A stretch of 64,000 nt of DNA, taken from the NCBI GenBank assembly GCA_000961765.1, contig LADT01000013.1:62001-126000 (forward strand), in the 5' to 3' direction. How positions within the stretch are numbered: position 1 is the first letter of the stretch; the number at the start of each line of letters is the position of its first letter. The position numbers and the translations under genes are program-made. The notes beneath the pieces were generated by a model. The model was not told where the DNA came from and did not search any database. It saw only the letters and a program-made list of their open reading frames with translations. This stretch comes from Clostridiaceae bacterium BRH_c20a. Lineage in GTDB: Bacteria > Bacillota > Peptococcia > Peptococcales > BICA1-8. Positions 8,221 through 61,656 of the stretch are shown one piece after another.

Positions 8221-8252
8221 GTGGAGATCGCCGCACTACGCTCGCGATGACA
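8221..8252. repeat. Family E partial repeat
   Basis: GTGGAGATCGCCGCACTACGCTCGCGATGACA. Confidence 0.7.
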
Positions 8253-8327
8253 GAATATATATAAGTCCATACTTTTTTACTGCACCGACAGGTGACATCC
8301 TATCCCGCAATGAGCCTCTAAAGCCTG

Positions 8328-10080: not shown

Positions 10081-10156
10081 TGTCATTGCAAGCCCGTGAG
10101 GGCGTGGAAATCTCTTGGGTTAAGATTGCTTCAGTCGTACCTCCATCGCAATGACA
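10081..10156. repeat. Dispersed ATTGCGAG-type repeat (family E)
   Basis: TGTCATTGCAAGCCCGTGAGGGCGTGGAAATCTCTTGGGTTAAGATTGCTTCAGTCGTACCTCCATCGCAATGACA, terminal inverted repeat. Confidence 0.85.
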
Positions 10157-33350: not shown

Positions 33351-33481
33351 TAGGTTAAGGTTTCGCTCACTTTGGTTCGCTAGGCTAAGGTTGAGAAGAT
33401 GCCTTGAAAACTCACTTAACCTTAACCTTAACCTGACCTGTAAATTACTCAAGAGCTAACCTCGACCAATAAGTTTTGACC
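33351..33481. repeat. Family A copy A5, between tuf and fusA
   Basis: TAGGTTAAGGTTTCGCTCACTTTGGTTCGCTAGGCTAAGGTTGAG...CTTAACCTTAACCTTAACCTGACCTGTAAATTACTCAAGAGCTAACCTCGACC. Confidence 0.9.
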
Positions 33482-33494
33482 AAAAAGCAAAAGA

Positions 33495-52871: not shown

Positions 52872-54446
52872 TTACTTCCAACTAGTTCCCTGTGGTGCAT
52901 CCTCAATAATTATACCCACATTTTTCAACTCCTCTCTTATTAAATCAGCAGTTTTAAAATCTTTATTTTTTCTGGCAATTTGCCTAATATTGATTATCAC
53001 TTCCATTATTTTTTCTAAAAGATCCGCTGCCTCCCCCTCATGCTTCCAAAGGGTTCCCTTAGTGCCGTCTTCCAAAACTATTCCAATTTCCTGTAAATGG
53101 TCCCTAATACTATCTGCAGTTTTAAAATTCTTTGCTGCTCTAGCATTTTGCCGTAATATGATTATTAAATTCATCAAACCATCAATATTTCCAGTTCCGT
53201 TCACTTCTTTTCCTAGGGAAATTCCCAAAACAGCTAATAAATCGTCAAATACTTTTTGCGCCTCTCCTAAAGAAGTTTTATCCAACTGTGGCTCCCTTAA
53301 GTAAGTATTTACCTCCCGAGCTAAATCAAATAATACAGCTATTGCTAAAGCGGTGTTGAAATCGTCATTCATAGCCCCTTGGAATTCTATACAGGCTTTT
53401 TCAGCCGCCTGCCTTATTTTCTTTCCATTATCATATTGTCCCGAGATTTTTAACCCGTTTAAAAGCTGCGAATAAGAATTGGATAGCCTTTCTAGCCCTT
53501 TTTGGGCTACCCTCAATTTTTCATCATCAAAATCTAGCGGACTGCGATAATGGGTAGCCAACAGGTAAAACCTTATTACCATTGGATCAAATTTCTCCAT
53601 TATTTCTCTAAGTAAAAAGAAATTACCTAGAGATTTGGACATTTTCTCTTGATTTATAGTTATAAAACCATTGTGCAGCCAGTACCTAGCCATAGGTGCA
53701 TCCATTAAGGCTTCCGTCTGGGCAATTTCATTTTCATGATGGGGGAAAACTAAGTCATAGCCTCCTCCATGAATATCAAACTCCTCACCCAAATACTTGC
53801 AGGACATTGCCGAGCACTCTATATGCCAGCCCGGCCGTCCTTGACCCCAGGGGCTATCCCAAGCAGGCTCTCCTGACTTAGCTTTTTTCCATAATGCAAA
53901 ATCCAAAGGATCTTTCTTTCGCTGGTCAACCTCTACCCTTGCCCCCGATAGGAGGTCATCAATACTTCTACCGGAAAGCTTCCCATAGTCAACAAATTTT
54001 CTTACGGAGAAATAAACATCTCCCTCAACCTCATAGGCATATCCTTTTTTTTCCAAATTTTTAACAAAGTTAATTATTTCTTCCATATGTTCACTTACTT
54101 TAGGATGGATATCTGCTCTTTTTACCATAAGCCTATCTGCATCCGTAAAATACTCAGTTATATATTTATCAGCTAAAGCCAAAGGATTTTCCTCTTCTTC
54201 TTTAGCTTTGTTGATAATCTTATCATCCACATCAGTAAAATTTTGCACATAAGTTACCTTATAACCCAGATATTCCAAATACCTTCTAATAGTATCAAAT
54301 ACTACTATGGGCCTAGCATTACCGAGATGAATAAAGTTATAGGTGGTCGGCCCACATACATACATTCGTACGTGTCCTTCCTCCTTGGTTATGAAATGTT
54401 CTCTCCTCTTAGTTAAGGTATTATAAACGTGTAAATTATTATTCAT
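52872..54446 (-). CDS. cysS: Cysteinyl-tRNA synthetase with duplicated C-terminal domain
   Basis: [29 protein letters not shown]-terminus carries two consecutive copies of the usual C-terminal motif. Confidence 0.96.
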
Positions 54447-55104
54447 TTTTTTTACCCTCCAATTGATATACCTTTTCTTCGAGCCTTTGAACCTGCTTTT
54501 GCAAGCATAAAAGCATTTCTTGAACAGGATCTGGGAGATTATTGTGTTGCAAATCTATTTCATTTATTCTTTCTTTATTTAAATTTACTCCATCTTTAAT
54601 TACGACCCGCCCTGGTACCCCTACAACTGTACAATTCTCCGGAACCTCCCTTAGTACAACTGAGCCTGCCCCTATTCTTACATTATCCCCAACTTTAAAA
54701 GAACCAAGTACTTTTGCCCCGGTACTTATAACAACGTTATTTCCAATAGTCGGGTGTCGTTTACCCTTTTCTTTTCCTGTGCCTCCTAGAGTAACGCCCT
54801 GATAAATAGTAACATTATCTCCTATTTCTGCTGTTTCACCAATAACCACCCCTGCTCCATGGTCAATGAATAATCCTTCACCAATAGTGGCCCCCGGATG
54901 AATCTCAATCTGGGTAAGAAACCTTCCTACCTGCGAGATAAAGCGGGCTAAAACATACCATTTCATTTTGTAGAAAAAGTGACTGCTTCTGTGAAACCAG
55001 ATTGCATGTAATCCGGGATAATTTATTAAAATCTCTAAGATACTTTTAGCGGCAGGATCTCTCTCAAATACAACCTGTATATCCTTTTTTATTCTATTAA
55101 ACAT
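54439..55104 (-). CDS. cysE: Serine O-acetyltransferase
   Basis: [53 protein letters not shown]. Confidence 0.96.
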
Positions 55105-55149: not shown

Positions 55150-55300
55150 GCATCCGATGAATGGCATTTTCCTGGGATGCATCTGCTATTAGGTCTTACT
55201 GCATGATGCATCTGATGATTGTGAATTTGTTTTGATGCATCCTTTAAGCTAGACCCGGGTGCAGATGCCACCTATGATACTAGCATGCATGGGATGCATC
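55150..55300. repeat. Family H array H3, five 29-30-bp units
   Basis: GCATC boundary (GCCACC at one junction) at 55150, 55179, 55208, 55237, 55267 and 55296; palindrome GATGCATC at most boundaries. Confidence 0.92.
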
Positions 55301-55345
55301 CCATAATATTTACCTTTAAGCAGATTCATGCCTTTTTTTGTACGC

Positions 55346-55790
55346 AAAAAAGTCCCTCATCTCCTACAGAGACGAAAGACTTCGCGGTTCCACTCTGGTT
55401 GAACAGTAATTATAATTACCGCTCCACTCATTCGGGCTTTTAACGGTGCCAACCGGAAAAACCTACGGTTTATTGGAGAGCCAACAAAAGGTTAAGGTTT
55501 CGCTTCGCTAGGTTAAGGTTGAGATAAGACCAGAAATTAAACCCGGACTAAACCTTAGCCTTAGTCTGACCAACAAAATTACTTAGAAGCTAACCTTGAC
55601 CAATAAGATTTGACCTAAAAGTTAAGTCAACCTTAACCTGTTATCAGGCGTAGCCAGATAACACTTCAGCTTTTCGATTCACGGGTGCACTTCACTTCTA
55701 CCGGAGCCTAGGTTTGCTTACAGCCGACGACAAACCCTCTCTGGAGGTTCAATAAAAACTACTCTCCCGGTCATTATCTTTACTTATTTA
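55346..55790 (-). promoter_or_regulatory. T-box leader, Cys (UGC specifier), upstream of cysE-cysS; interrupted by a repeat element
   Basis: Minus strand: stem I (GACCGGGAGAGTAG...CTCCGGTAGAAGTGAAGTGCACCCGTG), T-box AGAGTGGAACCGCGAAG, terminator AGTCTTTCGTCTCtgtaGGAGATGAGGGACTTTTTT. Candidate specifier UGC in GTGAAG-UGC-ACC matches the downstream Cys genes. Confidence 0.9.
55488..55640. repeat. Family A copy A8, inside the Cys T-box leader
   Basis: AAGGTTAAGGTTTCGCTTCGCTAGGTTAAGGTTGAG...CTTAGCCTTAGTCTGACCAACAAAATTACTTAGAAGCTAACCTTGACC...CAACCTTAACC. Confidence 0.92.
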
Positions 55791-55823
55791 GACTTTCGTC
55801 TATCGTCCATCGATTATTTTGTT

Positions 55824-55896
55824 TGTCATCGCGAGCGTAGCGCGGCGATCTCTTACCCAAGAGATTGCTTCAGTCGTACCTCCATCACAATGACAC
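55824..55896. repeat. Family E repeat
   Basis: TGTCATCGCGAGCGTAGCGCGGCGATCTCTTACCCAAGAGATTGCTTCAGTCGTACCTCCATCACAATGACA. Confidence 0.85.
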
Positions 55897-56025
55897 ATTG
55901 GATTAAAATCTGAGTATATTTCAAGTTGACTTGAATCTTAATAATAATTATATCTCGGCTTAATTCCTAGTGTCAAGGTATGAATTAAAACATAAGACAT
56001 TTCTATTAGACGATGGACTATTAGC

Positions 56026-61440: not shown

Positions 61441-61443
61441 TGT

Positions 61444-61656
61444 CAGGGACCAGGGCTCAGGGACCAGGGCTCAGGGACCAGGGCTCAGGGACCAGGGCTC
61501 AGGGACCAGGGCTCAGGGATCGGGGATCGGGGACCAGGGCTCAGGGATCGGGGCTCAGGGACCAGGGCTCAGGGATCGGGGATCGGGGATCGGGGATCGG
61601 GGATCGGTGAACAGGGACCAGGGATCAGTGATCAGGGATCAGTTACCGGTGCCCGG
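61444..61656. repeat. Family B heptamer array B6, about 30 units
   Basis: (CAGGGAC CAGGGCT)n ... (CGGGGAT)n CGGTGAA CAGGGAC CAGGGAT CAGTGAT, strict 7-bp register. Confidence 0.95.

Follow-up and report, generated by a model that had tools for sequence, protein, structure and literature searches.

The window analysed here is a stretch of 64,000 nucleotides from the genome of Clostridiaceae bacterium BRH_c20a (G000), and coordinates given without a prefix are positions within it. Its minus strand carries cysE, encoding serine O-acetyltransferase (54439-55104; TIGR01172), and cysS, encoding cysteine--tRNA ligase (52872-54446; TIGR00435), together with an upstream leader whose promoter on the same strand, TTGACA-18-TATAAT (55947-55976), agrees with the consensus at 12 of 12 positions. 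TTGACACTAGG is found at the corresponding place in the leaders of three relatives (G002, G004 and G005) belonging to the family of six genomes, G000 to G005, used for comparison, in which G001 is of the same genus as G000. The spacers from the promoter to stem I and from the terminator to cysE have both turned over between G000 and G001, and both contain other repeats in the window. The spacer between promoter and stem I (55795-55936) holds another dispersed repeat, 34 nt of which are 97 % identical to 10123-10156 and which has an inverted match to 8224-8261; this repeat was not seen in the G001 orthologue. A GATGCATCC repeat resembling 2646-2727 lies between the terminator and cysE (55234-55315), and copies of a 14-nt unit, TCAGGGACCAGGGC, and its variants stand in tandem at 61443-61610.

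The cysE-cysS leader was matched by the T-box covariance model RF00230 over the full length of the model (positions 1-219 of 219), the match extending with its insert over 55365-55783 of the minus strand (90.9 bits, E 2.9e-20). The Rfam gathering score for this model is 93, and the cysE T-box, being 2.1 bits under it, is for that reason absent from the default scan of the window. The specifier UGC (Cys) lies at 55687-55689 within GAAGUGCACC, in the context GAA-G-UGC-A-CC. It agrees with the tRNA-Cys of the host genome, which has the anticodon GCA and the 3' end U73-CCA, and with the downstream cysE and cysS genes, so that both the cysteine specificity and the match of specifier to genes claimed in the initial annotation were confirmed. 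The T-box sequence AGAGUGGAACCGCG is present, and the bulge UGGA (55389-55392) of the antiterminator (55366-55397, minus strand, from the Rfam alignment) is exactly complementary to the U73-CCA of the host tRNA-Cys. Stem III was located at 55401-55424 by the Rfam alignment and by folding. An intrinsic terminator, consisting of a long hairpin and then a T run, was recognized at 55346-55382 from fold and sequence, on which grounds it competes with the antiterminator; it was not listed by a simple terminator scan. A degenerate stem I had been named in the initial annotation as a sign that the switch no longer functions, and stem I proved not to be degenerate, the core features being in place.

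Inside stem II, 196 bases are skipped by the Rfam alignment between the strands AAAAGCUGAA (55668-55675) and GUAGGUUUUU (55456-55463), which form an 8-bp lower helix with the GAA/GUA S-turn on top (GAA at 55665-55667 in the Rfam alignment, GUA at 55464-55466). Since the lower helix and the S-turn flank the insert, the latter stands where stem II would have its apical loop, and the IIA/B pseudoknot region CGGUUGGCACCGUUA (55441-55455, Rfam alignment) lies 3' of it, ahead of stem III. The insert had been thought to lie between a pseudoknot-like part and stem III, a placement that has to be corrected to the stem II apex, with the pseudoknot after it. The whole non-canonical segment measures 198 nt (55467-55664) and not about 150, because two flanking hairpins also belong to it: it is made up of hairpin A (55640-55664), a 150-nt family A arm (55490-55639) and hairpin C (55468-55488), all read on the minus strand. 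The terminal loop of stem II has 4-9 nt in compact T-boxes of the family. The S-turn and the IIA/B sequence are both present in the cysE leader. Of 21 compact T-boxes, 20 have an A immediately before the S-turn GUA; cysE of G000 has a C there, as has G001. According to the review PMC7583486, stem II contacts the codon-anticodon helix through a purine string in and beside the S-turn, and this string is intact in the cysE leader when the published assignment is mapped onto the sequence by eye.

The family A core GGTTTCGCTTCGCTAGG occurs in 50 exact copies in G000, 22 in G001, 35 in G005 and 3 in G004, and is absent from G002, G003 and four more distant genomes, with a count of 0 for the reversed control throughout. 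A query covering the insert gave 46 matches in G000, the best other match of the arm being 33352-33487 of the window (73 % identity over about 130 nt, E 1e-17). The part of the arm that can be aligned to another long family A copy runs from about 55490 to 55621, and the leading AGGTTAAGG block of the arm is extra sequence outside it. A sharp right end, ...GCGAAACCTTAACCT, is common to the arm and about 25 other copies, and the sequence beyond it is unrelated; with the number of cores in the genome, this shared end establishes a family A element inside the T-box, as had been proposed from the sequence at first reading. The genome has 19 matches to Y1_Tnp (PF01797), and family A is at most a candidate for a REP- or MITE-like mobile repeat. 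That the flanking hairpins might be a regular part of the repeat was considered and rejected for most copies, the repeat stopping before hairpin C in all but that of valS. A search allowing at most one mismatch to the pattern located hairpin A in three leaders and nowhere else, namely cysE of G000, cysE of G001 and valS of G000; hairpin C was located elsewhere only in G000 valS and G001 cysE. Copying of the whole apex between the T-box paralogues of cysE and valS would be a simple explanation, although an unproven one.

The specifier UGC and the bulge UGGA are kept in the cysE T-boxes of all six family genomes, in which the length and filling of the apex vary widely. The cysE apex measures 235 nt in G001 (family A and one more hairpin), 198 nt in G000, 133 nt in G004 (family A-like), 68 nt in G005 (three short hairpins), 66 nt in G002 (CACTAGC repeat) and 46 nt in G003. 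The cysE T-boxes outside the family are compact, with 217-241 nt in all in one set and 202-256 nt in another. The relatives free of family A, G002 and G003, thus have shorter apices of unrelated sequence, and not the unrelated sequence at the same spacing that would have spoken against an insertion. The valS apices have 6 nt in G003, 29 in G005, 35 in G004, 171 in G000 (family A) and 198 in G002 (mixed repeats), and those of pheS 114 nt in G000 and 117 nt in G001. The long apex of the G000 pheS leader (L022) is without family A, and its G001 orthologue (L241) has CACTAGC repeats there. The contig carrying valS of G001 ends upstream of the gene, so that its T-box is not visible and no apex could be compared; the stretch from this contig end to valS includes a domain V-like sequence that looks like a group II intron 3' end (L264:1890-2270). 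The initial view that T-boxes here are otherwise compact is therefore only partly right: it holds for the other T-boxes, with their loops of 4-9 nt, but not for cysE, valS and pheS, whose stem II apices are often enlarged across the family.

Repeat words were counted over 108 T-box matches from the six genomes: the enlarged apices, 1,501 nt in all, contained 40 of them, and the remaining 23,860 nt contained 3. This contrast is descriptive only, since the words were picked after the apices had been seen and T-boxes broken by inserts elsewhere could have evaded the search. The apex finder was unreliable under a score of 5 and missed the pheS apex of G004, and only scores of at least 5 entered the count. 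As the repeats found at this position differ among related bacteria, the tip of stem II looks tolerant of foreign sequence. Other arrangements were also noted. The leuS T-box of the relative G004 (L105:1501-1867) has in its stem III loop a complete tRNA-Ala(GGC) gene (L105:1744-1819) with an extended -10 (TGCTATAAT), and it is the sole scanned T-box locus in which a tRNA gene was seen. The leaders L207 and L229 each have two consecutive T-box-like segments (GGTGG/GGTTGG) and may represent partial tandem T-boxes, and three successive tRNA-Leu(TAA) genes with a spacing of 176 nt are present at L275:1554-1994.

The pairing of hairpin A is retained through changes on both sides in 5 of its 10 pairs in four genomes, and 97.5 % of cells are paired against 20-45 % when slid, figures that come from four sequences only; hairpin C also keeps its pairing and is nearly invariant, too much so to yield covariation information. 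The computed energy of the insert is -59.5 kcal/mol in the constrained leader and -58.2 kcal/mol alone, and imposing the canonical stem II on the full leader has a cost of 2.4 kcal/mol. Because these energies are additive, the insert behaves by energy as an independent domain, and the model thus favours the earlier suggestion that it could fold on its own. In the unconstrained ensemble the lower helix of stem II has a probability of 0.05 with the insert and about 0.35 without it, as given by folding models that take no account of the S-turn, the pseudoknot or transcription order, and about 32 of the 198 apex bases are expected to pair outside the apex. G000 and G001 are identical at 92 % of positions in the 5' part of the T-box core, 96 % in its 3' part and 91 % in the aligned apex, compared with 60 of 84 fourfold sites (71 %) in cysE. 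The same arrangement in a second genome of the genus led to the rejection of an assembly artefact. Selection on the arm itself was hinted at by the difference between apex and fourfold sites, but the same two genomes agree at 94 % of positions in another family A copy, also intergenic (a third is much rearranged), and with a copy so equally conserved no special constraint is claimed for the arm.

We regard the locus as most probably an intact transcriptional Cys T-box that senses uncharged tRNA-Cys, controls cysE-cysS and tolerates a repeat in a permissive apex, and as one of several of this kind in the family. The dispersed palindromic family A repeat and its two flanking hairpins would fill the place of the stem II loop, and the arm would fold on itself and project past the S-turn at the far end of stem II. 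With the arm self-folded there, specifier-anticodon pairing, the S-turn contact, the IIA/B element, stem III and the switching between antiterminator and terminator could proceed as in a compact T-box. The sequence itself shows the parts of the T-box, the identity and exact position of the repeat and its recurrence in relatives. The switch is likely to be still in use, and we infer that it is functional in vivo and tolerates the arm without requiring it. The C for A before GUA and the low probability of the lower stem II helix in the presence of the insert are considerations against an intact switch. They are also what would be expected of a decaying T-box, in which the insert had disabled the switch and cysE-cysS were expressed by readthrough or without tRNA-Cys control, and the RF00230 score under the gathering cut-off points the same way. 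That low score, however, was obtained for a match containing a very long insertion, and the specifier, UGGA, the terminator and the core are conserved in G001 despite an even larger insert, which makes decay highly improbable.

The arm might have grown in place from an older hairpin of the cysE leader, its resemblance to family A being due to chance. In G005 the counterparts of hairpins A and C enclose a short AGGTTGAGG...ACCT hairpin at this position, so that the three-hairpin layout may predate the long arm; but the match of about 130 nt to a dispersed copy, the right end coinciding with that of about 25 copies and the unrelated sequence held there by genomes without family A make such an origin quite unlikely. 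If the arm had instead been recruited, the enlarged apex of cysE (and valS) would alter the switch, for example by giving tRNA longer to bind while the leader is being transcribed, or through additional contacts with tRNA or a protein. The enlargement of the cysE apex in six of six family genomes (46-235 nt), and often of valS and pheS, when other T-boxes have 4-9 nt, the compensatory changes in hairpin A and the identity of the apex between G000 and G001 would all fit recruitment, which is nevertheless unlikely: the genomes fill the apex with unrelated sequence (family A, CACTAGC repeats, plain hairpins), the intergenic family A copy is as well conserved, and valS of G003 is compact. It is similarly doubtful that the stem II apex of cysE, valS and pheS is a recurrent docking site at which hairpin repeats are captured, passed between T-box paralogues and tune the switch, a reading for which the two flanking hairpins common to cysE and valS of G000 can be cited.

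Under the reading of an intact switch with a tolerated repeat, the natural insertions mark a point at which a T-box may take up to 235 nt with no visible loss of the functional core, and native compact and enlarged orthologues are available for testing the role of the stem II apex. A repeat-bearing T-box can drop below the standard annotation cut-off, so others may be missed. No description of a dispersed repeat inside the stem II apex was found in the literature, the coverage of which was incomplete, and novelty is thus unproven. In cyanobacterial RNase P RNA, also a functional RNA, hairpin-forming STRR repeats are tolerated at the end of a peripheral helix; they differ from the cysE insert in the RNA, the host group and the repeat family. 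The cysE leader is like other Cys-specific transcriptional T-boxes (RF00230) in its stem I UGC, stem II S-turn, IIA/B, stem III, UGGA, terminator and cysE-cysS genes, and unlike them in the 198 nt that replace a stem II terminal loop of 4-9 nt. The whole stem II region of T-boxes has been given as about 10-200 nt, with unexplained insertions in every domain (PMC7583486); in the cysE leader we count about 235 nt for this region, taking stem II through IIA/B. The closest precedent found is in Streptococcus pneumoniae, where a BOX repeat separates two trp T-boxes and was reported to be transcribed together with them and to be compatible with regulation (PMC3049150); in both cases a dispersed structured repeat lies within a T-box leader, but there it stands between two complete T-boxes and here inside a single one, at the apex of stem II.
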